Assembly (NCBI GenBank): GCA_963971285.1
Contig: OZ020255.1
Coordinates: forward strand, 9,382,931-9,446,930
Origin: Astropecten irregularis
Lineage: Eukaryota; Echinodermata; Asteroidea; Paxillosida; Astropectinidae
Length of the DNA stretch: 64,000 bases
Direction: 5' to 3'
This document shows positions 16,672 through 63,627 of this stretch, piece after piece (the first letter of the stretch is position 1; every line of letters starts with the position of its first letter). The notes under the pieces were generated by a model. The model was not told the origin of the DNA. It saw only the letters and a program-made list of their open reading frames with translations, and searched no databases. The position numbers and the translations under genes are program-made.

Positions 16672-17308
16672 AAAACAGTTTCAGGCCTATCCCAGTAACT
16701 GCAGCTGATCCTGAGCGCGCCAAAAAATAAGTGTCCACCCTTAGGCCTACTCTTATCGACGTCACGACATTCAAGTCCACGTAACAAGTTGATTATCGGC
16801 ACCACAATGAATTGCACCACAGTATCTTGATTCGAAATAAAGATACCAAAGTTTCACTGTTTGTTTTAGTAAAACGGTTCATGAAAATCCGTCGCACCAC
16901 ATCGAGAATATTGTTATGGGTTTGGTCCCCGATAGCATGTGAACTCATGGATGTAGCAGCCGGCGTTGGCAGTGTGACACGTACACACACTGAACGCGCC
17001 TCAAAACTAGAAATTGGGATTGGTGTCCGGAAGAAATTGAGCAAGACAAAACCACGATCATGCTTCGAAGTCGTGCTCAATAATTCCTGTGCATTGTTAA
17101 AATATTGAAAGGTTTTGCAATCATCATTTATCAGGAAAACAGACAATGCGACAGCTGTTCATGAACCGTGTGGGAAAAAAAAATGTAATCGATCGTGAAA
17201 AATTAATAGAAAACTACATTGTTCTGCAGTTTATTAGAGAATGGTGCAGAATTCAACAGATGTACAGGGCATTGCATCACCACACTACCATCAGTTTTAC
17301 ATGTAACA
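16672..17308. other. Upstream flank of the sulfotransferase
   Basis: No gene is seen. The probable promoter and 5' UTR of the minus-strand sulfotransferase would lie here, but I cannot pin a TATA box or start. Confidence 0.35.
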
Positions 17309-27382: not shown

Positions 27383-27485
27383 ATGGCGTCGGAAGCCAGG
27401 GGAATCTGTGGTCTACCGCTGCGGCAAGTTGTGTGGGTCTTCGTCACCTTGATCGTCATGACAAGGACGACTTGCCGAGCTCAAT
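27383..27485 (+). CDS. Integrin beta exon 1: signal peptide
   Basis: Residues 1-34: basic start, hydrophobic core [11 protein letters not shown], then CRAQ. The exon ends phase 1 at AAT|GTGAGT. An in-frame stop upstream fixes the start. Confidence 0.9.
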
Positions 27486-30400
27486 GTGAGTACAGCCTTT
27501 TGACAATGTTATATACAGGGTCGTGTTCTGGGTTATTTCCATACTACGTTGGAACACAGATATATAACAAACACATGGCTTTTTACAAACCTGGGCTCCG
27601 GCTCAGTCTCCGGCTCAGGCTCCGGCTTCATCTCTGTCATGCTGAAAATATGGGTTTTAATAGCGCTGCGCACTTGCGCTAAAAATAGCACCGAACCTCA
27701 GACAAACATTGCAACGTGGCCATGCAAACGTGTGGTGAGTGGAAGCATGTGTGGAAGTATGTGTGCGCGTCGCGCGTGGTGTGACGTCATTAGTGCGGAA
27801 CGCTATTGAAGCTGAAGCTCTGTTTTCCTTTTCAAACTGGAGAATCTACTTCGAACCGCTGCCAAAACCCCCTATTTTGATACCCGTTATTTTAGAATGG
27901 ATTCACAAAATGGAGCTGGGGCCTTTTGCTACATGTGCATTGTATGTAGGCCCTAGATACCGAACATCATCCTTGGCTCCCAGTTTTTGTGTTAAACTTA
28001 AAAGCAGAGTTGTGGGGTTGCAACTTTTCCTCGGATCAGATGATTTCCTTGTTTTTCACTCCACTCTCTAATGCCAATGAAAAATGGAAAACACTGGACA
28101 AGCCAACTTACCAACTATGGTACATGTAAAGCTTGGAATTTCCTTGTTTTTTAATGTTAAGTCCAAGTTGCCTGCCTGGGAATTGCACAACATACCTATA
28201 TTTATCCGGGATTAAACATTTTCAGGAATTATGTAGTATGAATAGGAAATTGCTGTGTTGTCTCACTGTATGCATACATTATGTGGATCAGGTTGTGGAA
28301 ACACCATGTAAGAATCGTTCATACTTTTGCACAAGTTTCTGTTTCGTTCGCACTTCTCGTAAGGTCTCAATGTTTCGACTAGCCTGCTCTAGTCCTCATC
28401 AGGAAACCCACATACTGTACCAATTGTCACCATGCAAAGCCTCAAATCTTTCTTGTATTTTATTTTATTTTATCGTCCACGAGGCTTAAACATCCTGATT
28501 TGGGGTTTTGAGTCGGATCACGTTTCATGCAGTTTAGACGTCAGCGGACCAGTTAAAAGTTACCCTTTCAAAATCTATGTTCATAGTGTAAGAGTGCATT
28601 GGCCACCAAATCTATGACATCATAATTGTTGGTATCCTTCCCTTCCCCCTGCCCCCTGCCCTTCAGACGTCAGACCCCAACCCCTCCCCCTTCCCCCTCC
28701 CCTTTCCGTCCCAGACTGCCAGCAATACATACATGTTCAACATGTTGGGAACTGTTTGTATGTGTAGTATACAGGTACATCATGTACACATATATCATGT
28801 ACACGTATACATGAATGTATGCAGTACATGTAGTACGCATACAGTCACACCAGGAAAATAGGTATAACATTACATGTACAGTGTCTGAAATACAACCGTG
28901 ATTGAAACCAATAACATGAAACCACACCATTGGCAGCCCGGATGCTTTATACCAAAAACAAGTGTTGAAACCTAAAACCAAATTATGTTGGGAAATGTAT
29001 TGTCCCATTGGAAATGATATTTTTTCTTTCGTTTTCTTGCTTTTATATGTTTTGGTTTGGTTTGGGGTTTTATTTTTATTTATCAGTTCTGGCAACAAGA
29101 AGACTTGAAAGTTCTTCTATGGAAACAAAACAAATTCTGTTATAATTTTGCATTGCTGCTTTTCATCCATTCGTGGATGTTGCCTTCTTCTGTAACAAAA
29201 AAAATGCCAAAAACTTGTAAACCAAAAATCTTGTCATGATGAATTCTGTAGCAGTAGTGACATGTACTACTGTGCATTCTCTTGTACATCTACACTGTTC
29301 TTCAGATCTCATATTTCATGAAAACAAGTTCTGGACAGCTGGTCTGGTAATTGAAGCATTTTACTAGACCTGAACTTTTTTCACTAGACCTGTGACAGTC
29401 ATGTACATACATATAAGAAAACCGTAATTGGTTGCAATATTGTATCAAAGATCATCGATTTAGGAATCATTTTATTTGTGCCGAGGAAAACAAAATCACT
29501 AGACAGCTGGACTTGTGCAGTACACACTTCACTAGACTGACACTGAAATCACTAGACTCCGTCCACGGTCTAGCCGTCTAGTGGATACATGTATTTCGAG
29601 CCCTGTTCTTTATGTACGTGTATCCATGTTTATTTGTGGTTAATTTTTTATCCCAAAAAGTTTTAAAATCATTCTGAAGTGGTGGAGTCAAAAGATATAC
29701 TGTAGTGTATATAATTGAAAAGCTTAATTCTAGCAAAAAAAACTTTTAAAAAAATGAAGAAAATTATGAGTTAATATCTTCACTGTATGTGGATCGGTTT
29801 GCGGAAACAAACCGATCCACATACATGTACACATCTTCACTGTGTGACAATTTTGCCAAAAGAAAAGACTGTCTGTGTGTGAGCCAGCAGAATTTGTTGG
29901 CAAAAATTCCAAGTATCTCTGATTTTATACGAACCCATTATTTTTTGTGGTTAAATAATATTAAAGCCGGTCCTGATGAATAGTTTTCCAGGCGAGGTTA
30001 CGGCGGTCAGTATTAATTTTGGCAGTTTCAAGTCAACCGGACATCTGTGGTAACCTTTAATGAGATTTTAGGCTGTGCATGTAGGCATCGCAAGCTGGTC
30101 AGCTAGCACAGTATACACGTGTGCGGTTTGTGGTAGCACCAACGTGATGTCTTTTGCTGAGTGTCGCTGGTTCTCATTAGTTCCTCTGGTTCTTTTCAGA
30201 ACCTAAAATACTCAGAAAAAGTTATCATTTTTAAGCCTTCATTTTAATAAAAAATAAGGAGAGCTGCAAATCACTCTCCTTAAATCAACGTAGAGAATTT
30301 AGGAGAGTTATTTGCTCTTGCTAACAAAAATCAAGTTTGAGCTGCAAATTCAAGAGATGCAAAATTTTGCTTGTCCTGTTGAACATTAATTTTTGTATTT

Positions 30401-33400: not shown

Positions 33401-36400
33401 TACCACAGTCATGCTAGTAATGGTGTATCACCATGAATCGTGTTTTCCCTCCGTCTTATTAATTTCAATTTCTCATTTTGTTCTTCCTTTTCCCGTACAG
33501 CTGATTTATGCAAAGATGCCAAGACATGCGGTGGCTGCATTGTACTGGATCCATCCTGTGTGTGGTGCAAACAAGAGGTACATAAAGAGAGACAAATTTC
33601 AACATTGGCTTAAACAGGAGTAACAACCAAATTTCCAAGTGTTGTGTATCACTTGCAATTGTTCTTTGGCTGTTTTTCGCTGACCACGAATATCAAATCG
33701 AATTTTCATTGGTGGTTTATTTTATTCAACAAACCATTGTTGTGCTAAGCAGCTGTATGAAATTGGCCCCTGGCCTGGTCTGGCTTTTAAGTGGCTAAGC
33801 TCAGCCAATGTTGAAATTTAAGGAGAGAAACTGGCTGGGCCTAGCCATTTAAAAGCCAGGCCAGGCTAGGTCTGGGCTCTTAGGCTCTTCTATAATCCCT
33901 AGGCTTAAACTATCATCGTCAAGACCCTGTTTATGTCTTCGAACACTGCACTATTACCTGATTGACAGATTAAGTTTGCATTGATCTTGGACAGTATATT
34001 GAAGCCAGGGGTGATTGATTTTTAGCAAGTCTATTGTAGTGAAGTTCAGGGATCGATTTCACAAAGCCCTATGATCGCTCATAACTCGATTAACAAGATA
34101 ACCCATCGTATCCTACGTAGGACTGCGATGCATCATTAAGTCATACAATCGATATTAAATTACGATGAGTTTGGTGAAATTGACCTTAGGGCTGACAAGA
34201 GGAGGATTTTAGGCCCGAAGGTCCAGGCCTGGTCTGGCTTTTCAAGGGCTGTGCCCAGTATTACAGTCTCCCTCCCTAAGACTGTATTAAGGGACTGTAA
34301 AACCAAGCTTACGTGTACATACATGTATACCAGTACATGTATAATCTTGTTTTTCAGACATGTCTGTTTTGTAGCATTTGTGTCATTAACCCTGGTATCC
34401 ATTGGCAACGTGGACTCACAATTTTTCCCTTTTCTGTTGAAATCTCAGACAGTTCAGGAAATAAAAAAACAAACATTTCAGAGATTTATCATTTTTGACG
34501 GATTAGTCTACATTAACAAACACTTTATACCTTTAAAAATCTACACAGACGTGACTTAACAAATTTTGTTTCATTCAATACAGTTGCCATGGTAACTGCA
34601 TTCTTGTTTTTTACCCATTTTTCCTTTGTTCAGGATTATAAAGATGCCGAAGGTAAAACCTTTCCGCGATGTGATGTCATCGCCAATCTGGAGAAGAACG
34701 GCTGCACAGATTTTAGCAATCCAGCCAGCACGTCCATCTTAACACGGGTAAATATGTCGTAGGAAAGAAACGAAAGGATAGCCATTTTTTATTATTTTTT
34801 TTTTCTTCAAAATGTGGTATGCCAGATTTGCTGAGATTTTGATTTGAATAGAAATTGTTAATTTTGAATCATTTGACCGAGATCCAGAGATTCTTGTGTG
34901 TAACAAGCATACCAAAAGCACAAAAATCAAACACTTTCAATCTCAGGCTGTACTCCGTGATCATATATGGGTTGATGTGGCTGGCAGCCAAGGGCGCCCA
35001 TGAAAGCCTGCTACTCGATTACGTTGAAGTCGCATCCTTCGCAATTCAGCACCCCAGCTGCCAGTAAGGATGATTAGCCTCCCAAATTATTATTATTAAA
35101 TGAAATGATCCTTGGGATATAAAGTGTGCATTCGTTTAGCTCCCCCGGGTTGACACCAGTCAACCTCGTCCCCATTCTCTCACCTGTTTTGTGCAGTAAA
35201 GCACTACCATTCCCAGTAAGGGCTGAACCGCGTTAGCTAAACGAATGCACCCAGTGGTATGTGAGTGGTTTCATGGCTTCTGACTGCTAAATGAACAAAG
35301 ATAATTGACTATTAGGGACACCACCAACGTAGGGCTGGGTAGCTCAGTTGGTAAGAGCGCCGGTACGGCATTCCGGGGGTCGCAGGTTCGAATCCCACTC
35401 CAGTCATTTTTCTTTTGTTCACCTTTGTTGATTTCAAGCATTCTTATTCTCATAACCGTTGTCTAAAAATATTTTGTATAGCGCTTTGATCTTTTTGTAA
35501 AGGCACTTTAGAAATACATAACTGTTGTTGTTATTATTTTCCTTAACAATGGACAGACCCAACTTTGATACACCTGTCATTGTATCATTTCATTTTCAGG
35601 ACGAGCCTTTAAGCGATTCAGGGGCATCAGGAAGCTCGGCCGCTGTGCAGGTCAAGCCCCAGGCGGTCACTCTCAAACTCAGACCCGGTCAGTTCAACAA
35701 ATTACCCTCATATTCCATCGACTTTATACTGTACATCCTCTGTATACGATACTTTAAGTCTTCGTGTAGGGACCCAGGGGTCAACTTCACCAAACTCATC
35801 ATAACTTTACTATCAATCGTAAGACTTACATTTAATAAACTTCTGCAAACTGCTCATCAGCCAAAACAATGACCTGAAATTTATAACATGCGTGGAGTTA
35901 GGAGGGCCTGACGTGTTACGATCTTAGCAGGATCTTTGTCAAAGGCTAAAAGACATAAGGACAAGAACATGCAAGTAAAGATACACATAAATAGATGAGA
36001 AGATCGGGACAAAAGAGGTTATTGGGAAGGTACATGTATGACTTGTGATACAATTGCAGCACTATGTAGGATAGGCCCCCTATGATGGGTTATCCTTCAT
36101 ATAAAATTGAGTTACGATCGATTGTAGGGCTTCGTGGAATCGACCCCAGTCCAGCTCAAAGATTATATAGCGCTACGCGCAAGATGGAGAACTCTCCCTG
36201 AAACGTGTAATCGCCGGGGCGCGCGCTCCACGTACGAAGATGATATGTGTGCGATACTTGCAAAAGAAGGTCCAGAAAACCACCAAAACCGCCGTTTTCA
36301 TATTCAGCTGCTTCACATCAATGTCAAATATTTTTATTTACAATAAATAATAGGTTTTAATCAAATCCGGGCCAATATTTTGCCTAATGCTCCACTTTTC

Positions 36401-39400
36401 TTTCATAAATCTCCCAGCCCCCATATGTCCCGTGTACAAACTACTCGCTATTTCCACACCAACATGGCGGATCGTGTATAATTTGTATGGAGAATGGCGA
36501 CCTCCATACCGATTACCACACGCCCTATGGGCAGTTATCCATCTTGCGCGTAGCGCTATATAATCTTTAGTCCAGCTTAGGCACTAGTAAAGGACTATCC
36601 ATGCCCCACGAGGCAACGTTTGCAGGCAACTATGAGGCAACCAACTACACTGCATGCAAGAGGAAAATCTTCTTCAAAAGTCATTTCTCTAGTACCTTCT
36701 TGGTATAGTTTCACACCATTCCCAAGACAATTATATTGAACACAATTCCAAGGTGAATGCCATTTCTTCTTGGCGATTGCCAGAGGCCAATTTCATGGAG
36801 CTGCTAAGCACAAAATGTTGCTTAGCACAAAAATGTCTTGCCCAATAAAACAAACCACCAATAAAAATTCCATTTGATATTCATGGTCAGCGAACAACAG
36901 CCAAAGAACAATCACAAGTGATACACAAAACATGAAAATTTGGTTGTTATTCCTGATTTTATGAAGACAGAAATTTCATGTTTAGCAAATTGTTAATTGG
37001 CCCCTGGAATTGATTGCCTACACTTCATGTATAAAAATTGCCTCTTGTGCCATAGGCTATAATGTGCAATTAACATTTCCTTGTGTAGCGAAACCTACAA
37101 TGTAGGATTAGTTTTCCACTTTCAGTTTTGCCTTATATCATCATCGGTTGATTTATTTGTAGGTCAACCGACCGACATAACCATGTCGGTGCGTCAGGCT
37201 GAGGACTATCCTGTTGATCTCTACTACGTCATGGATCTGTCTAAATCCATGGAAGATGATCTGAATAATCTTAAGGAGCTCGGGAGCCAACTCGGTAAGC
37301 GGCAAAAATTCCTTTCAAGTTTGGGATAAAATTTCTTTCATAAGGCAAGCTTTGCAGTTTTTTTTTCACCACATCCTCTATCTGTTCGTTTTCTTCTCAT
37401 CTCATCGTTTATTTTTATTTTTTACTTTACTTTCTATTGCATTTTACACTTTTGGAGTTATTCTATCTAATGTGTTTTAAGTATTTTACTGTAAATAAGT
37501 AGTTTATTATTAATCATATTGTTTTGTCCTTTATTTGTCCTGCAAAAATCAATAAATGAAATAAATTAAATGAAATTAAGCTCCAATTTTTCCTGCTAAG
37601 TTCCATAATGTTCACAGCGACCAATAGTACTTGGTAAATAGTACTTACTGTTCATAATTTGATAGTTCATGAAATAAAAACAAACCTGTGACATTTCAGC
37701 TCAATTGATCATTGGAAACAGTAGAAAACAGCAAAAAACCTTAATTGTCTTGCGAAATTATAAAGGTAATTGTAATTGTGAGGTTTTGATCTTGAAATGC
37801 AAAACTGTTTTCTACATTTTGTTTCATTCATTTCTGGAAAAATACAGCATTTCAGGCAGAAACGTTTTAATGGTATATGTTTGTACCAGGGCCAGGGGCC
37901 GATTTCACTAATGCTTTGTGATCATCGCTAAAGCCCAAATCCATCGCTAAACGGAAAATTGCTACACTAAAGTAGCGATCAATTTTCCATTTAGAGATGA
38001 ATTTGGGCTTTAGCAATGATCGCAAAGTGTTCGTGAAATCGGCCCCAGGTCTATCTTTATACGCTGTAAGATATAGATAACTCTGTGAACATTTCTGTTT
38101 TGGTTTCCTACCGAAGTATGATACTACCTTTAATCATTAGGCTATAGACACAGACACAACACACAGGGCACTCCAGCACTGTGTTGTTGTTTTGTCGTGA
38201 CCCGATGCATTTTTTTTTTACCATTGTTGTTTTTGGCCGTCCTTTTATCGGCACAGCACGAAGGATGCAAGAAATCACGACCAACTTCCGCCTCGGTTTC
38301 GGATCCTTCGTGGACAAAACTGTCATGCCATACGTCAGCACCGTACCAGCAAAGTAAGTTCCTTATTTATTTACCCTCACCCGTGGGTGGCTCTGGTTCA
38401 CATCCAACATTGTATGAAAAGGGAACTTCTTTAACAAAAGTGATATCAACGATAATATTTTCATCCTAAACAATCTGCTTTTTATTCCAAACTATATGCG
38501 TCCGTATTTTACCCTAACCCACCTCCATACAACGGTTTACCACAATACTCCACAGTGTGGTTTGTGTTGGTAATGCATGGTTTATGATCCAGTTCTCCCT
38601 GTGGAGACTGATAATGTGTGATAAGCAGCTCTTGTCTTGTGTGGTAGGTGCAGAGGGTTAGGGTTAAGTCCTCTTGTGGAGACTGTGGTAATGTGTGGTA
38701 AGCAGCTCTTGTCTTGTGTGGTAGGTGCAGAGGGTTAGGGTTAAGCATTCATTACATAACTACAAGTTAAAGGGGTCAAACCCTTTACAAGCTTTGGCTT
38801 CTTGTCTGACCTCCTTTAATTTCAAGTTCCATCAACATTTTTTTGTACAGTATCCAACTTCCTAATAGGACAGAAAGAATCCAGAACTTTTGTATTCATC
38901 TACTCAGGTCAGCTTCATAAAGCTGCCGAGCCAAAACCAACAAAAAGGCATGGCCCTTGCCAGGCCTTTCAGTGGCTGGCACCGACCAGTATTCAAGTTT
39001 CTCTCCCTATTAAAGTATACTTTGCTAGCTACTCAACTCCATTTATGTGGGCATGTGGCATCAGGCCACTGCTGTTGAGCTCCGGCTGTCAGTTTGTTTT
39101 AGAGTCTACACTCACAGTTCTTGTCAGGACCACACTTCTTCCCAAAAGAGTAGCAGTCGCTGGATAGTGGCTGCCATAGGTGCTTGAGAGTGTAGACTCC
39201 TTTCCTAACCACACTGCTTCCCAGAAGAGTACATGGTGCATCCTTAAAGCCTTGCATCTCTTGGTCTGTACTAGGCCATGTCCCAATTCTCTGGCTGCGA
39301 CCGCAAATAACACACAAGTCTATGGAAACGGCTGCAGTCACTGGCTAGTGGCTGCCACAGGTGTGTGAGAGTGTAGACTCCTTTCCTAACCACACCTCTT

Positions 39401-42400
39401 CCCAAAAGAGTACATGGTGCATCCGCAAGCCTTCTATCTCATGTCACTTCTGCCGTGCAAAGCTTCAAAACCTACTCTGTCAGTTTTTGTTACCCAGTTT
39501 TATACGCGTTCATCATTTCAGGTTGAAAAATCCTTGCACTGGCTGCGAGGCGCCGTACGGCTTCAGGAACGTCCTGCCCCTAGACACAGACACGACTAGG
39601 TTCACTGTAAGTATGCTGTACCTCACAAGAAACAATACCACCTTGTCCCTATCCCATAGCGAGCCTGGCAGGAAGCCACTCTTGCCTTATTACCATGTAT
39701 TTTTTTTTCTTACATGCCACGATTTCGGGGTTTTTTTACGAAATGAAGACTATTTCAAGAGCTTTAAAACGATGTGAAGTTTATCTCTGTAGGTGCTTTA
39801 CTTCTGGGGCCAATTTCATAGAGCAGCTTAAGCACAAAAATTGCTTAAGCATGAAAAGTCTTCCTTGATCAAGCAAGATTACCAACCAAATGTTCATGTG
39901 ATGTTTACTGCTTTTGACTTGTATTCTGGTCATTGTTTGCCGAGCATAACATTCACGAGGAGTTTTGGCTGGCATACTGATTTTATTTGCCAAGGTTTTT
40001 TTATGCTTAAGCAAATTTTGGTGCTTAAGCAGCTCTATGAAATTGGGCCCTGGAGTTATGGATGTTTCAATGTGGCAGGTCTTGCAAGTTAATAGTGGAC
40101 AGTTCATAATGATGAGGACTTTGACTACAAGTTTGATTTTTTAGATTTTGCGATGTGACAAAGCTTGAAATGTATCTGTATACCTCTAGATATTTGTGAC
40201 TGATACATATTGATGTCATTTTGCAGTATGATGACAATTTTTTCACTCTCTTTTTTCCTCGCTAAAATCGTTTTGACAGGAAATTGTTCGTAATCAGAGT
40301 GCGTCTGGCAACCTTGATGCACCAGAAGGTGGCCTGGATGCCCTGATGCAGGTTACCGTCTGCACGGTAAGTAATCACAGCCTGTGTTTGTTGCGTTTTG
40401 GTTGGTACCCGGTAACCTCAGTTTATAACATGACTGCTTTTATAGCTTCCTAGAATGTGAAATTACACACAGAGTGAAACAGCTAGAATTGATAGTGTAC
40501 CTTGGTTTGGCGTGATATCAGTTGCCCTTTCCATTTTCAGTTGTCCCTAAGAATTTCACTGTAGGTCTAGAGTGTTACGGTGAAGAACTTTAATGCAGGT
40601 CCTAATATTAAAGTATTAATTTGTCCGCACTGGACTTTTATGGGCAAAGTAACCGAGATGCTGGGTACTTCACCCATTTTAAGTCCAGTGCGGACGTCTC
40701 AGGAACTCTACCTCTCAGTTACTTTTCCCGACCCGTGCGGGCATTTCTACCGGCAAACTTCTGCCCAGGAAAGTACTTCAGACAACTAAGTGCTTAGATG
40801 CTTAACTTCTGAGTACTTTGGTGTAACTTTCAGGTAATTCATACATTCTAGTGAAATAGAACTGGAACATTAACTTGAAATATTTGAATCAGTGACTGTG
40901 ACATAAACCGTGGAATGATTGTTTGTTTTTTTTGTTTTTTTTTGTCTTTAGAATGAAATCGGATGGAGACAGCAGGCTCGTCATCTTGTTATCTTCACGA
41001 CTGATGCACCCTTCCACTACGCAGGAGACGGCAAGGTTTGTGTCTGTTTAATGGTTGTAGAGGGGAGGGGAAGGTTGGGCTAAGGAATGGAGCTTCTGTG
41101 GCCAATTTCACGTCCCTGCTGAGCACAAAAATTGGCTAAGCATGACATTTCTGTCTTTATGAAAACCGGATTAACAATCAAATTTCCGGGTGTTGTGTGT
41201 ATCACTTGCAATTGTTCTTTGGCTGTTGTTGCTGACCATGAACATCAAAATGGAATTTGTAATGGTGGTTTATTTTATTGGGCAAGAAATTGTTGTGCTA
41301 TTAAGCAATTGTTTGTGCTTAATAGTAGCTCCATGAAATTGGCCACTGGTGGGACTAGTTCATGAGAACAAAGCCATGTCTCCACAAGGATACAAATTCC
41401 GGTTTGTTTGTGTATTAATCAGTAAATTTGTCCATTTATGTGTGAGGTTTTGAATCGTCCAATCAGAGTTCTGAGTTTACAACTGACGCGGCTTGTTCTC
41501 TCACATTCAGCAACAATTTGAACATTTTAAAACAATGTGGCATATTTTGTCTTCCTTTGCAATACAGCTGGGCGGTATTGTGACTCCGAATGACGGAGTG
41601 TGCTACCTGAATCCTACCGAGTACACAAAGTCCAAAGACTTGGTAAGTGCATTGCCATTGAAGTGCTTTAAATATAGACCCTTTCACAGTTAGACAGGAA
41701 GTGTGCAGTGAAGGTATATGAGAAATGCATTGTGGGACAGTTTGTACTAAAATTCTGTATGCGAAATTCCACAAAATGGTCTGTTGAGTGTAGTTTGTGT
41801 TGTGTGTAGCTTTTTTCAGTACCCAAATGTTGTAATGTCTACTCAAATTATGCCGTGATTAGAAAGTTCTGAAGTGTGGCATGTTCTCAAGTGTAGTGTA
41901 ACTCGAGTAGCTTTTTTTATCCTTGAGTGTAGGTAAAAATACTCAAATGTTGCTACCAGCAACACAGCATCGCGTGACATCAATCACCTTTGTCTTTTAT
42001 ACTTAAATGTAGTTCTTACACAGCTGCGCTGTCCATTTTATGAGAATTTTTCTTTCTGCTTTTGGTTTGTTGTTTTGTTTAATGAACTAGACTAATCCTG
42101 TAAAAATAGGTTGATTTTACACTTATCGCTGTATGTTTTCTTCCGTTGCTATGGTGATGCAGGACTACCCTTCCATTGGTCAGTTGAATGCTAAGATGCA
42201 ACAGAAGAGCATTATTCCCATCTTTGCCGTGACGGAGAGCGAATATGGCATTTACTCCGTGAGTATCTCGGATTTATGAATGAAATACAGTCTATCGGCT
42301 AGGGTAGGGTAGTGCGTCTGATTGTAGTGCTCCTTGATCACTCCCAGTTTCCAAGTCCCATAGCCACTTTGGTGCAACTAGCAGAAACCAGACCTATGAT

Positions 42401-51400: not shown

Positions 51401-54400
51401 AGCCCGTTTCGGACACGGCCTGAGCTTCATTTTTGAAAAGGTCCGATGTATGTATGTCTAGAGGTCAAAGGTCAGAAGGTCAAATATCAGCAAAGCAATG
51501 TCAGGGAGGCCAAAAGAAAAAACCCTGGAGACGATATAACAGGAAGTGAAATATCAGGAGGTCAGATGCCAGTAGGTTGTGCAAAGCGCAATTGCCGAAC
51601 AATGCATCTTCATTAGACAGCAATGTAGTATCTACTGCCATTCATCGTTCAAAACATTTTGTCTGAAACTTTCGGTGACTTTTGTCCGAAAAAACAGGCA
51701 TGTCCGGGAAAATGCGAGGTGAACCGGGATTGCGTGGCATGCAAGCAGTTCCAGGAAGGACTGAGCCCTGAACAGTGCGAACGTTGCCCATTCCAGGTCA
51801 TCCCCGTCAAGGAACTACCAGGTGAGTACATACTCTAGCTCCCTTCCGCCCTTTTGACATGATGCCAAAAAAAAACTCTCAACTATTGAGAAATTCTCTC
51901 ACGGTTGCAAAATCTTACAAAAGTGTAATCGTGTGAAAGGACACCAATGCTTGAGAGTGACCGACGTCCCTGGTGAATCCTTGAGAGATTTTGACCGAGA
52001 TCCAGACCTACGACAAAATTTCTCAAAGCTTTTATAGTGCTTTGCAATGCGCATGCGTGTGTTTTTCTATGTGTTACATTGCGTTTGCAGACCGCGCGCT
52101 TCACGCGCAATCTCAGCGTCGTGATGGTACTAGCAGCGTTTTACATTCACAAAATGCATAGTTTATCGATTACCCGCGTTCCGTCTCAAGGGAGGTTTGC
52201 GAAATGTTACACTGTGCCGTGTGAAAGGACGCAAAAGCGGCCAGCATAAAACCGTTTTGTATAAGATTTTGTAACCATAAGAAAATGTCTCAATGGTTGA
52301 GAGTTTTTTTTTAGCTTCGTGTGAAAAGGCCTATAGACTGCAAAATGGAGGAAAGATGCGTCATAAATTTGACAAACTTTGTACAAAACACTGAAAAGGA
52401 GTCTTATTATGTAACTCGAGTATCGTAATAGTAACATGTACTTTTTTTCCCCGGTTGCAGAGCAAGATACCGAGCGCTGTCTGTATCACGACCAGAACGA
52501 TTGCTCGGTACTCTTCACGTACCAGACGCTAGAGAACGGGACCTTTATACTGATCGTGCAAGAGGGACCTGGTACGAATTTGTTTCCCACGTAATTCTGC
52601 TTAATTTAACATGTCATCTATTGCCCATTTGGCTTCAGACTGCCAAACGAACAAAGATAATTGACTAGTAGGGACACCACCAACATACGGCTGGATAGCT
52701 TAGGTGGTAAGAGCGCCAGTATGGTATTCCACAGATCGACGGTTCGAATCCCACTCCAGTCAATTTAACTTTGTTCACTTTTTAATGACTGAAAGGTAAT
52801 ATCATACTTTGGTTTTTGTCAAAGAAGTACAAATTCATGGGCAAAAATATAGATACGAAATAAGATATAAAGATACAGTCACAGTCATCTGTGAAAATTT
52901 CAGTCCCATACAGTGCCCTTTTTTGGGGAGAAAATCGAGAAAAAAGGCCACAGTATTTCTAAAGTCTTTTCTCTTTTATTTTTGATGTTTTGGTCGTTGT
53001 TTTTTTACTATTATTTCTGGATAAATACACCGTTTCAAGCAAAAACATTTTAACGGTATGTTTCTATCACCACCATCTTCATACCCTGTAAGTTATACGT
53101 AAAGCTGTGAACATTTCTGTTTTGGTTTCTTAATACCAAAGTATGATACTACCTTTAAAATTAATCCAGCAAGTTTCCCTTGTGGTTATTTGATGATTAT
53201 TATGATTAATTCTTGCTTGTTTTGTTTGTATGTCCAGTGTGTCCAGTACCAGTCAACAGTGCAATCATTATTGGGGGCATCGTAGCGGGCATCATCATCA
53301 TTGGCCTGATCTTGCTCATCATCTGGAAGATCCTGACTCACATCTACGACTCGCGAGAGTTTGCTCGCTTTGAGAAAGAGCGCACACAGGCCAAGTGGGA
53401 CCAGGTAAGCCGGTACCCCGTAGGAAACCTTTGTTTGTGTCGTTGCTTGTGTCATACCTTTCCTTCTGTTATTATTTTCAACCTGTGCTCAAATGTCACA
53501 TAAAAGGCATGTACAACATTGGTAAAGGTGATAGAACAGTAGGCTGCTCATAATTTGATTTGTCATGGAATGAACATAAACTTGCGAAATTTTCAGCTCA
53601 ATTGATCATTGGAAACAGTAGAAAACAGCGAAAAACCATTGCACTTGTTACAGCAAATTATGTGGGAATAGCTGTGACATTTTTTATCTTTCCAAGATCA
53701 AAAATGTTTTGGTGTTTGGTTTTACTCTGGATAGATACAGCATTTCAGGCAGAAACATTTTTCCAGTATGTTTGTACCATTACTGTCTTTATATCCTGTA
53801 AGTTATACGTAAATCTGTGAACATTTCTATTTGGGTATGTTACCTATCCTGTATTGTACCTTTAAAGCAGGCATGCAACTTTTCCTCTGATCAGCTGATT
53901 TCCTCTTTTTTCACTTCACTCTTGTGCCATTGAAAAGTGAAAAACACTGTACAAAATATGGTAAAGATTGGAATTTCCTCTTTTTTAAGAAAGTCCAAGT
54001 TGCATGCCTGTTAAAGGTAGTATCATACTTTGGTAAGAGACCAAAACAGAAATGCTCACAAATTTACCTATGACTTTCAGAGTATGAAGATCATGCTAGT
54101 AGAAACCTTCCATTAAAATTTGTCCGCCTGAAATGGTGTATTTATACAGAAATTAGTAAAACAATGACCGAAAATCTTTTTGGTCTTTTTAAAGATCACA
54201 AATAACAGAGAAAAGACTTAAGAAATACTGAGGCTGTTTTTTTCACAAAAAGTGGGCAGCGTATGGGACTGAAATTTTCACAGATGACTGTTACTGTATC
54301 TGTCTTGATATTTTTGCCCCTGAATATGTATTTCTTTGACAAAAACCAAAGTATGATACTACCTTTGGTAATAAGTCAAATTTGCGCATGGTCAGCAATG

Positions 54401-54500: not shown

Positions 54501-54779
54501 TCCCTCACCATCTTCCTATTTGTCATTTCTATATATTTTTGTAGTAAATGTAATTTTGTTAGGTCGGTAATCGTTGGAGAAAAAAAACAAAATTTTTATT
54601 GGAGGATTGGGCCAAATGTTTATATTTTTTGGGGAGGGAGTTTTAATAAGATTATTTGGTTTGGTGTGCTGTTAGAAGCTTCCATTATGTTACAAGATCC
54701 CTTGCAAGTGGTGGAAAAAACGATGGAGTGATCTTCCGCGTTCTGTAAAGGCTGACACTGTCTGTTACTACCCTGGTCT

Positions 54780-55080
54780 TGGGGCCAATTTCATGGAATC
54801 CGTTACTGTTAGCAAAAATTCTTCACTTACGGTAGCAGACCTTTTTTTTGGTTATAGTTAGCGTATTTCACAGAAGAGTTTCCTTTTTGGTAACGGTAAG
54901 CAAGGAATTTGTGCAGAATGCATACGACAGCCTGTTAGCAGAAAATGATCACGGTAACCCTAGAAATTCTTCGCTAACCGAAAGTCTTGCTTACGGATTC
55001 CATGAAATAGATTTCACACGTAGCAGTACCCGTAAGCACAAAAATAGGCCGTAACGGATTCCATGAAATTGGGCCCCGGT
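54780..55080. mobile_element. Foldback element (GGGGCCAATTTCATGGAATC)
   Basis: GGGGCCAATTTCATGGAATC at the left; GGATTCCATGAAATTGGGCC at the right, with an additional internal GGATTCCATGAAAT arm, suggesting an internal duplication. Confidence 0.8.
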
Positions 55081-55135
55081 CATTTTATACCAAGGAACCT
55101 TCCCTTGTCTTCCCATATTTGGACACTGTTAACAG

Positions 55136-55544
55136 TAGTGCTGGGATTTGTATCCAGTCATAGGTTAACTGACACGGATTTAATTATCCCGTTACAAATC
55201 TTTTGCTAACCGTTAACCGAAACTGAAAGGAATAAATAGTGACGGACATTTAACTCATGTTCAAAAAAACCCAAAAAGTGTTAACTCTAGAATTTCAGTC
55301 AGTTATTTTGTCCATTTTGCCCGCATTTTTCGCATGCTGGATCTAAAAGAAGCATTACATGTGTTTGATCTACAAATCTAAAACATAACGTCATAAAAAG
55401 CATTCTGAAAGTGACAGTCACATTGAAGAAGGCGTATACCATAAATCGCACACATTGCACGTGATTACATAGGTTAACTGTTAACCTGATTTTTTTTTGC
55501 AATCAGTAACCGGATATGAAATTACCCGATTTTGCCCAGCACTA
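55136..55544. mobile_element. Inverted-repeat element with TAGTGCTGGG ends
   Basis: TAGTGCTGGG and CCCAGCACTA bound about 410 bp with GGTTAAC words repeated inside. The end word also occurs at 49706. Confidence 0.55.
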
Positions 55545-56749
55545 GTTAGCAGTACCTTTTTTTTGTAACTTGTCCTCTGTGGCTGCTTTGGCTGGGTACC
55601 CTCCTTATACTCTAAGAGTCTATTAAACATTGTGCAGTATTCCTACTGCAACCTTAAGCAGCTCTTCACTTGTGGATGGCACCCTTCCTGAATCACCTTA
55701 TAAATGTCTGTTCTTTCCACCGGTCATATTCTTTTGACTTGATCTTAATACGAGCCAGCAATCTTGCAACGGTAGGGCAGCGTCTGGACTCTGTGCCTTT
55801 CAAAATTTCAGGAACACGTGAGATGGACTTCAGTGGGTTTGGGATGGGTTGGGGGGTTGACGATGCCAGTGACTTTTAAGAAGAGAAACTTGAACATTTA
55901 CAGGGTTAACCTTCATAATTCAAGTCATGATAGATCATAGGGCTTCGTGAAATCAACACCTGGATCATTGGTGACGCTATTAAGCTTCTGATTGACAAAA
56001 TTGAGTCCGCGATGATCATAGACAATATCAACGGTAGCAAGCCAGGCGATGTCAATTTTAAGCAGCTATGTTGTTATGAGCTCCGGAGTTGTCTAGTGAA
56101 GGATTTCAGGCCCGAAGTCCAAAGCTCTGGTCAGGCTTCTCAGTGGCTCAGCTAAACCGACATTAAAAGCTTCTCTCCCTAATAGGTCTAAATGTGATTT
56201 AAGATCATGCCCAATGTTTCAATTTTCATTCTGTGGACGATGCTATCGCTATTTATTTTGAAAGATCGAGATACTTGTCATGTTTCAAACAATAAATGGT
56301 TGTTGATATCTAACATTTGTCATTTTTTTTATAGGGAGGGAAAGTTTTAATAAGAGGGTATCAATCAAAATGTGGTTAACATTAAAAAGTAAGTGAAAGT
56401 TTCATGAGTGAAGGCCAAATATTAAATCGAAAGTGGATTGTGGTCTGGTGCTTTTTTTTAATTTTTCCCAGTAGTTAGGGGAACTTCGCTGAAAAAACAA
56501 CACAAATATTTGGATCACACAAAGGGAAAAGGGAAACAAAAATCTGTTTCCTGGATTTAAACCGCAGCACATGACTTTTTGTTTTTTTGTGATGAGAAAT
56601 AGTTCCTGGTGCTCTAGAAACAATCATACCCCCTCATAGGAAGGACTAAAAGTTTGTTTGTTTTGTTCTACATATCAAATAACATGGGTATGACTTAAAA
56701 CATTTTTTATTCTGGGAAATTGGCCATGTTTCATTTTGCTTTTTCTTTT

Positions 56750-57154
56750 TAGAAGTACTATCATACTTTGGAAGCATACTGAAACAGAAATCTCCACAGA
56801 TTTAGATTTACCCATAACTTACAGGGTATAAAGATGGTGATAGTAAAAACATACTGTTAAAATGTTTATGCCTGAAATGCTGTATTAATCCAGAAAAGGG
56901 TAAAACCAATGACCAAAAACAATGTTGATCTTAGGAAGATCAAAAATTAACGGTGAAAAGATTTTTTAAAATACTGTGGGCGTTTTTCACAGTGATCTCA
57001 AAAAGTGGGCACCGTATGGGACTGGGAATTTCACAGGTGACGGTTTCTGTATCTTTCTTGATATTTTTGACCTTCTTTATATATGTATCCTGTATAGGTA
57101 AATCTGTGAAGATTTCTGTTTTGGTATGCTACCAAAGTATGATGCTACCTTAGG
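56750..57154 (+). mobile_element. TTAA element family A, old copy
   Basis: AAGTACTATCATACTTTGG at the left; ACCAAAGTATGATGCTACC at the right; TTAA lost at the left. Confidence 0.75.
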
Positions 57155-58089
57155 ACATTTCAGTCTATTTTGCTTAATACTCTCAGATCTGTTGGTCCAA
57201 ATGAAGTAAGTCCATCTTTTAAAAAGGTTGGAATAATAACGCTGTAAAGGGAGGAAGCCATTGTTTGTTGTTTTAAACTCTGTGAGGTGGATTTTTTGTT
57301 GTCACGACCGTATTTAATTTATGTTATGTGACACTTGAGGTGCATCCCGTTAGAAACTTGAGACGCTTTCCTGAGATTTTGAAAGTGATAGTCGGCAGAA
57401 TCATTTGCCCTTTCGATATTGCTGGTCAGAGCTTAGTAATAGTTACACCGAGTGACACTGTTCACATTTTTGGCCTGTTAAGGATGCGGGCCCCAGCAGA
57501 GCTTGGCATATCATCATGGTTTACCATGGCGACGTACCTTATCAAAACTACAAACACGATCACACTTCATTCGTTATTTGGTATTAAGAGCAATAAATAT
57601 TACATTACTTTGGTGAACCAGTCCCCTCTCAAATAGAACAAGTAAAGGATTTAAAAACACAGATTTCATCAATCAATGATGTATCTCTTTACATGGCAAA
57701 GTGACAGTTCCGCTTTTGTTAAAGATTATTGTACACAAGTTGTATGGAATTAAACACTTGATGTGCTGTTTATCAAGTGATACTAGATTTTGAGTCGTTG
57801 GTTCAACCAATGCTCAAAGGTCGTTGACCCTGCCCCGCCCACAAATATCAATAGAGGACATGTGAAGTTCATGAATCTTGAATGTAACATTGCTGAGTAC
57901 AAATAAGTTGTTTTTATTATTTTATTTTGTGTGTGTATGTGTGTACTTGTTGGGGATGTGTGTGGTTGTTTTGAAATCAAAATTGAAAATGACAATTGTG
58001 TAACATAAATTACTATTTTTGTAACAATTAAAAAAAAAAAAATGGATGAAAAAAAAACAACAACTTTAAGCTCGTATTGGAAATGTTGC

Positions 58090-58275
58090 TGATTTATCTC
58101 CGAGCAAACTTGAATGCTGGATGCTGATTGGTTGATCACCTTAGCAGCAGCCAATCAAATTGTTTTATAGTGACCAAAAGCTTCAAAATACATTTAGTCT
58201 GTCTTTTTGTCCATGCTAATTTTTTTGAAAAACTAAAATGTAGGTCCGTTTTTATTTAAGTTTGCTCCGAGATCA
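58090..58275. repeat. Inverted repeat TCTCCGAGCAAACTT
   Basis: TCTCCGAGCAAACTT and AAGTTTGCTCCGAGA lie about 160 bases apart; single locus. Confidence 0.5.
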
Positions 58276-59589
58276 CAGAAACAATTGCCTTTTTTCCCCA
58301 TTATGTCAAAATGTGTTAAAGTGATGCTTGGTATTTTTAGTGATAATGCTAGCTGCTACTTATTAGTCACAGTGCAAACTTGCTAGTTTACAAGTCTGGT
58401 ACACTGACTCAGTTGATTACATGTGCATATCAAACACTGCAAGTCCCCAGACTAGGGACTCTGTTCCAATTTAGGCAAGATGTTGCTCAATATGTTACAA
58501 GAGCCGGCCAGTAGTAATACATTCTGCTCAGTAGTTCTGCGTGCCAAAAAAAGATACCAGATTGTTCTAAAGCCAAAAGTTACCTTGTAAGAGCTTGCCT
58601 TATATCTTAAGTTACATCATTGTTAGGATTTTTGAATAACTTTAATCTGGATGCACTTTCAGTCCAAATCAAGTCGATATCCAAATTCATTTTGCAAAAC
58701 TTTGTGCCTTTAATACTGCTTTTTTTTCTTAATAACCTGCTTAATATATTTACCGTCTGTCATAAAGTTGTATATTTTTTAGTGTAAAAGCCAAGCTAGC
58801 TATGTGGAATTTTCCTCACTGCAATTTATGTATTGGTAGTTTTTTAAGTTTAGTAATGTGTGTATATATAAATGTACATGTATGTGTTGTGGGCTTAACA
58901 AATTGGGTTGAATTTTTCAATTTTCAAATATCAGGTATCATGAGAAGTTGATTACTTTTACAAGATGTGTTTAATTTAGTCAAATTTCTAGAGATGCAGA
59001 GGGCACCAGTTTGCAATTGGCGCGTGTAGAAACAAATGAAAGCAATCATGGGTCACCAACTAAATTGTTTTTATGGTATTATAATGTAAACTGGTTGTAA
59101 CTGGTCCCCTGAAGATGTTTTGTACTGATAGAAATTTAACAAAGTTTTTAACAGGACTACATCCTGCTAAAAAGTTATTGTGGGCCATGGTCATTTTATG
59201 ACTGTAGAGGGCGCTACACTTAGCAACAGCAGCAGAGGCCTTCTAAAATGCTGTTGGTACCATTCTAAAGGAACGTTTGCACAACAGTTCCTGCAACAAA
59301 AATCTGTGTCTTCCATTTGGCTTACTTAATTCCATAAGACTTTTTTTTTTGTAAAACAATTGTATTGTCTTCCACTTTTTGACCAAAATGTGTCTTTTTG
59401 TACTCTACAGAAAGGGTGCTACATAATTAACAACTTTTTTTCAGCAAACACAGGGTGTCTTTAATATAAGAATTTGTCAGTTCCAAAAATGGTTTCCAAT
59501 CTGACGGTAGAAATTCAAATAGAACGTTACAAATAAAAAAATATATTGCTTATGTCAAAATTGGTGCTTTCTTCCGCTGTCGGTTGAAC

Positions 59590-59745
59590 AAGGGGACAAT
59601 TTCACGAAGCCTTACGATCGATCGTAACTCGAGTTACAAAGGATAACCCGAGTCGTAGGGGCCTATCCTACATATGACTGCAATGCATCAAAAGTGCTAC
59701 GATTGATAGTAAGTTACGATGAGTTTGGTGAAATCGACCCCTGAT
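59590..59745. mobile_element. Foldback element (AATCGACCCCTG type)
   Basis: GGGGACAATTTCACGAAGCC at the left; GAGTTTGGTGAAATCGACCC at the right. Confidence 0.75.
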
Positions 59746-60245
59746 GTAGTTTTGTCTTTGCAATCAAATTGTTTCACTGTCAACGTTTTCAAAATTGTTC
59801 AGTCTATGGGTATAACCACAATGGGTATACCACTGGTGCATTAATCCAATGGTATTCGGTTCAATTCCCCGTTTAGTTCTCATTGTTAATTTTTTCACTC
59901 ACCACCGGAGCAAACCTTTACATTTTCATGAATAATGATTAAAGATAACTAAGCAAGCATATATAAATTAAGTACATGTAATATATAACATCATGGTAAA
60001 AAGACAATTCGCAAATAACCTTTGAAGTGTAAATAATGTGTTTTGCTTTTTAATTCTAAAGATAAGTAACAAATTATAAACTTTGTATGCAAATTAGCGT
60101 GATGACAATGTAACCGATTTGTATTTTTCAAGCAAGGCAGACGGATATTTTCAGCTTTTCTTTCTTTCTTTCTTTTTTTACTAAAAAATTAATAAATAAA
60201 TAAATTAAGAAATCGAGAAAAATGGCACAGACTCAATTGAATTGT

Positions 60246-60596
60246 TTAAAGGTAGTATCATACTTTGGTTTTTGTCAAAGAAGTACAGATTCATGGGCAG
60301 AAATATCAAGGAAGATACAGTCGCAGTCATCTGTGAAAATTTCAATTCCATACGGTTCCCACTTTTTGAGAAAATCGTGAAAAACGGCCACAGTATTTCT
60401 TAAGTCTTTTTTGTCTTTTATTTTTGATCTTTTAAAAGATCAAAAAGATTTTCGGTCGTTGTTTTTTTTTTTTTTACTCATTTCTGGAAAAATACACCAT
60501 TTCAGGCGGAAAATCATCTTCATACCCTGAAAGTTAAACGTAAATATATGAACATTTCTGTTTTGGTCTCTTACCAAAGTATGATACTCCCTTTAA
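60246..60596 (-). mobile_element. TTAA element family A
   Basis: TTAA at 60246-60249 and 60593-60596; the centre GATCTTTTAAAAGATC is intact; a T-run expansion lies near 60463. Confidence 0.9.
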
Positions 60597-61410
60597 AGGC
60601 AGCGTACAGGATTTGCAAGGCCTCAAAGGATACGCGTATGGTACAGATGTTTATGTTTCTATTATTATTTCTATAATTTGTCTGTTTTCTATTGCAGAGA
60701 GTTATGAGTCCTTTGTATAGTGAAACATGTTATCCTTGGAAACGCTTTGCGAGGGGTACAATGAATCTGCATTTCTATAGAGAAAAACAAAGTATGAAAT
60801 TACCTTTAAAAAAAGGGTGATTTTCATTTCTGCCAAACCCCATCATTGTGATTCCAACTAAAACGGTTTAGGATTCAACTAAAACGGAAAAGGTAGTACC
60901 AGTTTTACGGATATATCCATGACCCACAGGTGAAAATGAACACGTGTAACTTGATACTGTACATTTAATGTATGAATAATTGTGTTAAAAAAAAAAACAA
61001 GAAGAAAAGATGCAGTTCCTGATGTATGGCACGGTGGGGCATCAGGAAACCATGAATTGTATTTCTTTGCAGCACTTCCCTTTTCTCGACCCTGATATAT
61101 TTTTTTTCTCTCAGTACATTCATAAACAAGTCGCGTTCTACATCCATGAACAGATAAGCCAGGCCGCGCGCTGCATGGTGAAGTTGATTGAGGAGTTTTG
61201 ACCGTGTGTGGGCCGCGCCTAGGCCTGTAGATGACGCCTGCTAGCTGTTCGAAACGTCAGTCACGATAATTTCGCGTTATTGGTTCCCTACTTTGTGACA
61301 CTGTGTAGCAATTGCCCCATTGGGGTTCGTTTTTGGTGACCTGACTGTGTTTGATTATTACACGATATAAAAATCATCACTTTTGGTGTAGTCCTACCAA
61401 AACCAAATTA
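60597..61410. other. Upstream flank of integrin alpha
   Basis: A family A right-end fragment (AAAGTATGAAATTACC, near 60790) and a GAAACGTCAG motif at 61250 resembling the hammerhead-like repeats. A possible UTR acceptor ATTACCACAG ends at 61421. Confidence 0.4.
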
Positions 61411-61534
61411 TTACCACAGGCTGAAGCAGTTTTGACGGTCGACGGGGAACAAGGCTGCATTCTCTTTGTGCTTGCATTGTCCAACCTCGTTCTCAGCGAG
61501 TACGAACACTTGATTACTGAACGGCACCTTCAAA

Positions 61535-61704
61535 ATGGGCGTGTGCAGTTTAGATTGGGTCAAGTTGACCCTTTTGCTGAGTGGACTTGTAGTGTCGTCC
61601 GCCTTCAATGTTGACACCGATTCCCCGACCATATTTACCGGCCCGAATGGTTCTCTTTTCGGCACGTCGGTGTTGGGACATGAAATTAGTGACACTACAA
61701 AATG
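61535..61704 (+). CDS. Integrin alpha subunit, exon 1 (signal peptide, propeller start)
   Basis: The ATG is preceded by an in-frame TGA at 61511-61513. Residues 1-23 are a signal peptide (VKLTLLLSGLVVSSA) and the mature chain begins FNVDTDSPTIFTGPNGSLFG, matching the FNLDxxxPxxxxGPxGSxFG start of integrin alpha beta-propellers. The exon ends phase 2 at AAATG|GTAAGT. Integrin alpha chains pair with a beta chain on the plasma membrane; this one lies about 7 kb downstream of a beta gene on the same strand. The remainder of the gene is beyond the window, so the alpha class (RGD, laminin or other) cannot be called. Confidence 0.92.
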
Positions 61705-63627
61705 GTAAGTTCACTAAATTAATTTCAGGTCTAATTTCTTTCTGTTAAAGGTAATAATTTTATCGTACTTTTTTTGTCAAAGAATAATACTGCAGATTTA
61801 TGAGCAAATGAGCAACAGACATATGTGAAATTTCCAGTCCAATTAACGGTTCCCACTTATTGACAAAACAACCACGGTATTTTAAAAAAATCTTTTCACC
61901 GTTATTTGTTTTTTTAATCTTTAACAGATCAAAATTGTTGTTGGTTATTCATTTTACTCTTTTCTTATTATTTTTGGGGAAACTTCGTCAAAGTAGTGAA
62001 CAAAATAGCAACTCTAATGAATAAACACGCATAAAAAATGCTCTCCTGACGAATGTTATATACAAGCCATTGCAGGATACCCACTTAGTAAAAATAATTA
62101 TTAGGCCCTATCAATGACATGAGATCATGTAGTGAAACGTTCCAAGGTTAACATGTTTCGAAACGGAATACTATACAAAGGACTCATAACTATCTGCAAA
62201 AGAAAACAAACAACAGAAACATTAGAATATGTACCACACGGATATCCTTGAAATTTGTCGTACAATACGAGCCCATACCTAAAATGAAATTATTGCGCCG
62301 TTTAAAACTTGGGACAAGTTTGTCAAAAAACGTCAGAAACCCGGACAAGTTCGGGTTCGTCAAAAAACATGTAGGGCCTAATGATGTATACATGTATGTA
62401 CAGTTATATCTGTTTCAGTTTCTCGTGGCAACGCCGCTTCATTGTCTTCGTAAACGTCATCATCTTTTGAAATTGTCATCTTATTGAATTCTTTTGTATA
62501 GACCTATTGTTTTTGTGTTTATTTTAATGGTAGTATCATACTTTGGTAGCACACCGAAACAGAAACCTTCACAGATTTACCTAGAACTTACAGGGTATAA
62601 AGATGGTGATGGTAGAAACATACCGTTCAAACTTTCCTGCCTGAAATGCTGTATTTATCCAGAAAAGAGTATAAAATGACCAATTATTTTTTTGATATTT
62701 TAAAGATAAAAAATAAAAGAGAAACTTGCCCGGACTTAAGAAATACTGTGGCCATTTTTCACTGTTTTGTCAAAAAGTGGGCAACGTTTGGGACTGAAAT
62801 TTTCACAGATGACTGTCACTATATCTTCCTTGATATTTGTACCCATAGATCTGTATTTCATCGACTGAAAACAAAGTATGATATTACTTAATAATCGTTT
62901 CGTATCTTTTTCGATCGTTTTGTATGATAATCGTTTCGCACAGTATCAAATAATTATGTATTTTATTAAAGGTAATTATAATACTTTGGTTTTTGTCAAA
63001 GAAATGCAAATTCATGGGCCACAATAATGAAGGAAGTTACAGTAACGGTTTTGAATTTTTCAGTCCCATATACGCTGGCCACTCATTTTTTGAGAAAGCA
63101 GTGAAAAATGCATGCCCACAGTGTTTCTTAAAGTCTTTTACCGTGATTTTGATCTTGAAAAGATCTTTAAGATCTAAAAGATCTTTAAAATATCTAAATT
63201 GTTTCTGGTCATTGGTTTTACTGTTTTCTGGATAAATGCAGCATTTCAGGCAGAAAAAATGTTACGATACGTTTCTACAATCACCATCTTTATTAAGTTA
63301 TGGGTAAATTTGTGAAGTTCTGTTTCGGTAGGCTATAAAAGTAGTACCTTTAAATTCATTTTAGGTTGTTTTTGTGGGGTTTATGTTAAAATGCCCTATT
63401 AATAATAATAACAAAAGATCTACAGACGATTCAAATCAAAATATGATATATATTTAAAATGTTTAACCAACAATTAGGGCCTAATGAATTTTTAACCGGT
63501 AGGATTTTAGTTGGAGCGCCCAAAAGTTATTCGGACTGCCAGACTAACCTTCCTGGGCCGCCGGGGGCGCTATACAAGTGTTCCTTATCATCGAACAGGT
63601 GCAACCAAGTGTGTCTTGACGGAACAG
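61535..63627 (+). CDS. Integrin alpha gene, 5' partial (two exons in window)
   Basis: Exons 61535-61704 and 63503-63627 join in phase to give 98 complete codons: signal peptide and first blade of the seven-bladed propeller, including WILVGAPKS and GALYKC, equivalent to the vertebrate LLVGAPxxx...GxVYxC block. The donor at 63628 (ACAG|GTACGT) shows the gene continues. No further exon is recognised before 64000. Two family A elements (62524-62891, 62966-63353) and one fragment lie in intron 1. Confidence 0.9.
61745..61985 (-). mobile_element. TTAA element family A, truncated
   Basis: TTAAAGGTAATAATTTTATC at the left, TTTTTTGTCAAAGAATAATA inside; the far end is missing. Confidence 0.7.
62524..62891 (+). 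mobile_element. TTAA element family A
   Basis: TTAATGGTAGTATCATACTT at the left; GTATGATATTACTTAA at the right; TTAA retained at both ends. Confidence 0.85.
62966..63353 (-). mobile_element. TTAA element family A
   Basis: TTAAAGGTAATTATAATACT at the left; GTAGTACCTTTAA at the right. The centre is expanded with repeated AAGATCTTTAAGATC-like words. Confidence 0.8.
63503..63627 (+). CDS. Integrin alpha exon 2 (propeller blade 1)
   Basis: Acceptor AACCGGTAG ends at 63502. Together with exon 1 the split codon is TGG, giving W then ILVGAPKSYSDCQTNLPGPP and GALYKC. An alternative AG at 63510 would break the LVGAP frame, so 63503 is preferred. The donor is ACAG|GTACGT, phase 1. Confidence 0.88.

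Follow-up and report, generated by a model that had tools for sequence, protein, structure and literature searches.

The window analysed here is a stretch of 64,000 nucleotides from the echinoderm Astropecten irregularis (C19:9382931-9446930, where C19 is contig OZ020255.1), and it carries an integrin beta gene followed, on the same (+) strand, by the beginning of an integrin alpha gene. Integrin alpha chains do not resemble beta chains in sequence, yet the two are functional only together. The first-pass annotation of this DNA had proposed adjacent beta and alpha genes on one strand about 7 kb apart, and this is borne out: our exon models place beta upstream of alpha with 7,034 bp between them, and both models have matches in Pfam and among solved structures in the PDB. 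The proteins themselves are ordinary, and the interest of the locus lies in its organisation, because in this genome (475,729,200 bp in 168 contigs) every integrin that we could detect is found on the same contig as the window, C19 (20,066,109 bp, 4.2% of the genome), with an alpha gene beside each beta gene.

We modelled both genes from open reading frames and splice-site scores; the GT-AG ends of their introns are imposed by this method and are hence no evidence. The beta gene (27383-54500, +) has 23 coding exons that encode 794 amino acids without internal stops, and its best match among solved structures is integrin beta-1 (E = 3.7e-221, aligned over residues 38 to 792). Six integrin beta families score over their Pfam cut-offs (PF00362, PF17205, PF18372, PF23105, PF07965 and PF08725), corresponding to PSI, beta-I, two EGF models, the beta tail and the cytoplasmic tail. 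The chain has the make-up of an integrin beta subunit, with a PSI domain, a beta-I (VWA) domain, EGF repeats, the beta tail, one membrane span and two NPIY motifs. Exon 1 (27383-27485), with the start codon and signal peptide, is the least certain because an intron of 6 kb follows it. Exon 2 (33501-33577) starts the PSI domain, exons 3 and 4 lie at 34634-34747 and 35600-35687, and exon 5 (37163-37294), which gives the PF00362 exon match, carries the DLSKS metal-site motif of the beta-I domain. The model continues with exons 6-9 (38257-38353, 39522-39606, 40280-40366, 40952-41035), 10-13 (41568-41642, 42163-42258, 43046-43135, 44293-44480), 14-17 (44788-44872, 45048-45190, 46118-46190, 49562-49643) and 18-21 (50578-50705, 50811-50903, 51698-51821, 52461-52571), all on the plus strand. 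Exon 22 (53238-53404) encodes the membrane-spanning segment and the start of the cytoplasmic tail, and exon 23 (54438-54500) encodes the end of the tail, matched by PF08725, with both NPIY motifs and the stop. Vertebrate integrin beta genes usually have 13-16 coding exons (PMC4030831), so the window gene is the more finely split. Between beta exons 3 and 4 there is also a tRNA-Ala(GGC)-like sequence (35333-35406, +); later frames appear to contain a motif resembling it, pointing to a short repeat of tRNA origin.

By reading the contig 50 kb further we could model the alpha gene in 24 exons from 61535 to ~88485 (window numbering), encoding 1023 amino acids. Only exons 1 and 2 lie within the window: exon 1 (61535-61704, +), supported by the exon model and the PDB match, encodes the signal peptide and the start of the propeller (FNVDTDSPTIFTGPNGSLFGTSV), and exon 2 (63503-63627, +) continues the propeller. 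Position 63627, at which the first-pass annotation had ended its interval, is therefore the end of exon 2, and the gene runs on past the window. Among solved structures, integrin alpha-4 matches the product best (E = 5.2e-99). FG-GAP repeats, Integrin_A_Ig_2 and Ig_3 score over the Pfam cut-off and no VWA domain was reported; Integrin_A_Ig_1 was likewise not reported by the Pfam scan of this protein, whose model is weak in that stretch. With its FG-GAP propeller, Ig-like domains, membrane span and GFFKR-like tail (GFFRR, at 88327 in window numbering), the product is built as an integrin alpha subunit. The model has two weak seams: near 74.65 kb it includes an exon of just 32 bases, and near 87.05 kb an intron that, at 22 bases, is implausible. 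The thigh region and the part leading up to the membrane span are therefore provisional. Judged by the receptor features that can be read from the two genes (a propeller and beta-I head, single membrane spans, a GFFRR alpha tail and an NPxY beta tail), both products look like ordinary chains of heterodimeric adhesion receptors, new members of known families.

The spacer between the two genes (54501-61534) has a GC content of 0.363 and contains no N. No gene was recognised in it when the eight open frames lying within it or at its edges were compared with Pfam: five had no match and three had one match each, below cut-off. Repeats also present elsewhere in the surrounding 134 kb account for 1,377 bases of the spacer, and interspersed repeats at 56732-57151 and 60240-60624 have up to 29 matches within these 134 kb. 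Extra integrin copies beside the pair were looked for by blasting both proteins against the same 134 kb (E <= 0.01), and were discounted, as all 45 matches fell on modelled exons or at most 30 bases from them.

We then searched the genome exon by exon in six frames, scoring only the best candidates. Six integrin queries revealed six alpha and three beta loci, all on C19, where 140 of 141 matches fell. The beta-I family PF00362 had all of its 14 matches there and a further family, PF08441, its only one. Among the probes, the window beta gave 39 of 39 matches on C19 (E <= 0.01), the beta from 14.8 Mb 18 of 18 (E <= 10), the window alpha 42 of 42, at four loci (E <= 1), and the human alpha-V propeller 14 of 14, at six loci (E <= 10). 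A fragment of an alpha6-like (PS1-type) gene placed 13 of 14 matches on C19 (E <= 10), the fourteenth being to FG-GAP repeats on contig C15 (E = 0.93). The alpha probes marked loci at 1.62, 8.44-8.49, 9.44-9.47 (the window), 12.62, 14.72 and 18.65 Mb, and the beta probes and PF00362 marked genes at 8.55 (+), 9.41-9.44 (+, the window) and 14.85-14.86 Mb (-). As a control, the FG-GAP family PF01839 gave 30 matches, 16 on C19, 3 on C15 and 11 on other contigs, so that 14 of the 30 lay off C19, and Hox-type matches were found on C14 and C20; since these families are matched off C19, the search is not tied to that contig. The C15 locus (C15:3841601-3843400, which includes the two strongest of the 30 PF01839 matches) was considered as an integrin outside C19 and put aside: it fits no clear integrin class (scores 189-221), the alpha-V probe has no match in it and the PS1-type probe only the weak one just mentioned. 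Its FG-GAP fragments are presumably repeats of the GPLD1 type.

An alpha gene lies within about 125 kb of each of the three betas. The window pair, a tandem of beta then alpha, is the tightest of the three. In the neighbourhood at 8.5 Mb, alpha is on the minus and beta on the plus strand, a divergent arrangement. The gap between the outermost alpha exon that is firm and the first beta exon detected measures 88 kb, and shrinks to ~54 kb when weak N-terminal alpha matches (E 0.03-0.17) are included. At 14.7-14.86 Mb the genes are convergent, alpha on plus and beta on minus, with about 121 kb between the outermost exons found. That all detected integrins share one contig and that an alpha stands beside every beta is a strong result for this one assembly. 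The clustering is far beyond random placement: the probability of eight further loci falling on one such contig is 1e-11 if they are independent, and when three betas were placed at random on C19 in 200,000 draws, all three had an alpha no more than 125 kb away in 0.046% of them, both figures being post hoc and the 125-kb limit having been chosen after seeing the data. Paralogs that arise by local duplication are not independent, so the figures show clustering and not its cause.

The model of the 8.5-Mb beta begins near the position of residue 98 in the window beta and stays open as far as the stop, its first exons not being found in the stretch read; that of the 14.8-Mb beta is a partial one in two pieces, with the first exons and the middle outside it and one exon call out of frame. 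The metal-site motif is present in each of these two betas, as are two motifs of the NPxY type. Nine of the 19 exons of the 8.5-Mb beta are identical in length to those of the window gene, or 10 when the stop codon is treated in the same way for both. At the remaining exons the length differences are multiples of three, the first exon being truncated by the match. Window exons 17 and 18 (82 and 128 bases) correspond to a single exon of 210 bases in both other genes, which means that the window beta has one extra intron.

For each of the three alphas adjacent to betas, alpha-4 is the best class, by 55-65 bits over the next (189.8 against 134.5 for the window, 175.3 against 110.5 at 8.45 Mb and 188.9 against 128.4 at 14.72 Mb). 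The 1.62-Mb alpha is alpha6-like (159.9 bits, next class 124.6) and pairs with human alpha-6 in our tree (99/97). Fragments at 12.62 Mb score highest with human alpha-5 (247) and alpha-V (238), all others reaching 199 or less, which makes this locus a candidate of the RGD type, while the 18.65-Mb fragment shows no clear fit to any class. In the small alpha tree, built on propeller pieces of ~215 residues (three of them stitched by eye), the beta-adjacent trio groups together at 85/92, below the level that the program marks with a star. Human alpha-4 falls near this trio, and the tree, which has no alpha-9 row, leaves the order of alpha-4, the alpha-5/alpha-V pair and the trio unfixed. In quartet tests with one human outgroup for each family, the best beta topology was ((window,8.5),14.8), and the grouping of 8.5 with 14.8 was rejected (p-AU 0.006); the best alpha topology was ((8.5,14.7),window), the other two having p-AU of 0.14 and 0.13. 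Two joint topologies are acceptable for both families (alpha p-AU 0.14 and 0.13, beta 0.88 and 0.14).

We consider it likely that the window pair belongs to an old integrin chromosome, shaped by inherited linkage plus local duplication. Founding alpha and beta genes would have been linked on one ancestral chromosome and this linkage inherited, with slow exchange between chromosomes and free shuffling within them, and the set would have grown as an alpha4-like gene and a beta were duplicated locally. The first-pass annotation had raised an ancient linkage as one way to understand the pair, and the finding that a single contig carries all six alpha loci and all three beta loci, each beta having an alpha neighbour, favours it as far as this genome goes: here the detectable integrins of both kinds do share one chromosome. 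The age of the linkage and the course of the duplications we infer from this arrangement. A single-contig set points to one old shared home of the integrins, since scattered in vertebrate genomes.

Several observations weigh against this explanation. Local duplication alone could account for a single alpha chromosome and likewise for a single beta chromosome, and because it suffices within each family, only the sharing of a chromosome by alphas and betas needs an old link. The alpha and beta quartets favour different groupings. The alpha loci at 12.62 and 18.65 Mb were read only as short fragments, and a divergent integrin elsewhere could be missed by an exon-by-exon search for best candidates. 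Eleven weak FG-GAP matches lie on other contigs (two each on C9, C33, C62 and C17, and one each on C2, C8 and C1); of these, one C9 match scores above the family threshold, at 22.5 bits, while C33 and C62 each have one that passes only together with its neighbours. Of four beta-tail family matches, all below cut-off, three are on C19 and one is on C27. Finally, the genomic evidence for linkage comes from one assembly.

The shared tandem orientation of the window genes, the 7,034 bp that separate them and the lack of a recognised gene in between would also suit a dedicated pair, in which adjacent alpha and beta genes make one receptor and selection holds both in one regulatory domain. The best matches agree with this, as alpha4beta1 is a known vertebrate integrin (PMC7390872). 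We nevertheless regard such a pair as unlikely: the layout is not kept in the other neighbourhoods, one of them being divergent (54-88 kb) and the other convergent (about 121 kb), six alphas would have to make do with three betas, and the quartets do not show alphas and betas duplicating as fixed pairs. With no two pairs alike in spacing and orientation, it is improbable that they have conserved a shared promoter. The three neighbourhoods still name concrete alpha-beta candidates for dedicated receptors, and the two window products may be partners. A rather better case, though one we hold to be somewhat doubtful, can be made for the copying of one alpha-beta unit twice along the chromosome, leaving three pairs that still match. 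Each of the three betas has an alpha4-like neighbour, these alphas form one group, and the beta exon lengths agree; against it, the best quartets disagree, with window and 8.5 Mb as closest relatives among the betas and 8.5 and 14.7 Mb among the alphas, even if the two joint topologies would accommodate such a history. Very improbable, in our judgement, is that the genes are chance neighbours or were brought together by an assembly misjoin between 54.5 and 61.5 kb. The spacer does contain about 1.4 kb of repeat that also occurs in its surroundings; but it is free of N, a misjoin there would explain neither the other two neighbourhoods nor nine loci on one contig, and chance would rarely put three of three betas so close to an alpha (the 0.046% of draws given above, with its post hoc limit).

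Linkage to Hox genes can be set aside as the explanation for the clustering on C19. Of 14 homeodomain matches with E <= 1e-12, 12 are on C14, 2 on C20 and none on C19; seven of those on C14 fall within 366 kb (15.45-15.82 Mb), which we read as a putative Hox cluster. A chimeric marker probe for the ancestral unit of C19 gave 150 matches, all but one to its zinc-finger part; of the five matches that were strongest for its SP1 part, four lay on C16, a third contig. Vertebrate integrins resemble those of this genome in that several genes share a chromosome, and differ in being Hox-linked, whereas here Hox-type genes occupy another contig; the vertebrate linkage may accordingly be the younger state. 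Wang et al. in 1995 reportedly read the clustering of human integrin and Hox genes, to go by their title, as parallel evolution. Two further papers place the Hox cluster on bilaterian unit B2 (PMC11175523) and let the vertebrate CLGB, which bears Hox, correspond to three separate bilaterian units (PMC7269912); if the integrins were on another of these three, the vertebrate Hox linkage would be a product of fusion. The word integrin occurs in neither paper. We put forward only tentatively a wider scenario, in which the founding alpha and beta genes were neighbours on a chromosome of early animals. Echinoderms (and C. elegans) would have kept them on that chromosome over half a billion years, the vertebrate Hox linkage being a by-product of a stem fusion of the Hox unit (BALG B2) with the integrin unit and not parallel evolution. 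A chromosome with all detected members of both families offers a direct way to ask whether partner genes began as neighbours, and bears on whether the vertebrate integrin-Hox linkage is old or a later fusion.

Among well-studied animals, Drosophila has multiple edematous wings (mew) and inflated (if) on the X chromosome, with betaNu and alphaPS3-5 located elsewhere than mys. The mys gene itself (myospheroid, betaPS) is on the X (PMC2779589). The integrin repertoire of C. elegans is two alphas and one beta (PMC2397394), and pat-2 and pat-3 (PMC3355063; for pat-3 also PMC5305270) and ina-1 (PMC4019552) are all on linkage group III (LGIII). The worm is therefore like this genome in having its whole integrin set on one linkage group and unlike it in having only three genes; its map positions come from papers, and the comparison is one of linkage group. 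The first-pass premise that alpha and beta genes are usually dispersed thus holds for vertebrate beta genes, which are separately located (PMC4030831) where the three betas here share a contig, and fails for C. elegans. A look for linkage in PMC10381214, PMC10250714, PMC4072764 and PMC5030081 brought no result, and we noticed no report of a one-chromosome integrin set in the literature as accessible to us, subscription journals lying mostly outside its scope.

The window pair resembles human alpha4beta1 and alpha9beta1 at the level of best matches (alpha-4 and beta-1). The alpha4/9 class has been called vertebrate-specific, the worm and fly alphas being placed in the PS1, PS2 and PS3 classes and not in alpha4/9 (PMC1145181), and according to PMC7390872 invertebrates have generally lost integrins containing alpha4 or alpha9. 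An alpha4/9-like type outside vertebrates would nevertheless have a precedent, in that cnidarian alphas were recovered as the sister group of alpha4/9 (PMC2397394).

Some further features were noticed in passing. Upstream of the integrin genes, the window holds two similar long frames in tandem (6812-8320 and 11138-12595, +) with an F-box and WD40 repeats, 97% alike over a 300-base stretch, and a frame of 438 amino acids (15364-16680, -) with a sulfotransferase domain (PF00685, E = 2.8e-14). Elsewhere in the assembly, contigs C33 and C62 carry long FG-GAP frames and may be bacterial, as may C131, on which a COX1-type frame of 552 amino acids (C131:32162-33484) has no internal TGA. COX1 is also carried by contig C168 (16,335 bp), where AAA stands at two positions expected to be Asn within a piece of 600 bases; this is in keeping with the mitochondrial code of echinoderms, which flatworms share, and supports an echinoderm source without proving it. 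A COX1 match at C25:9951047-9952018, with seven in-frame TGA codons, is probably a nuclear copy of mitochondrial DNA.

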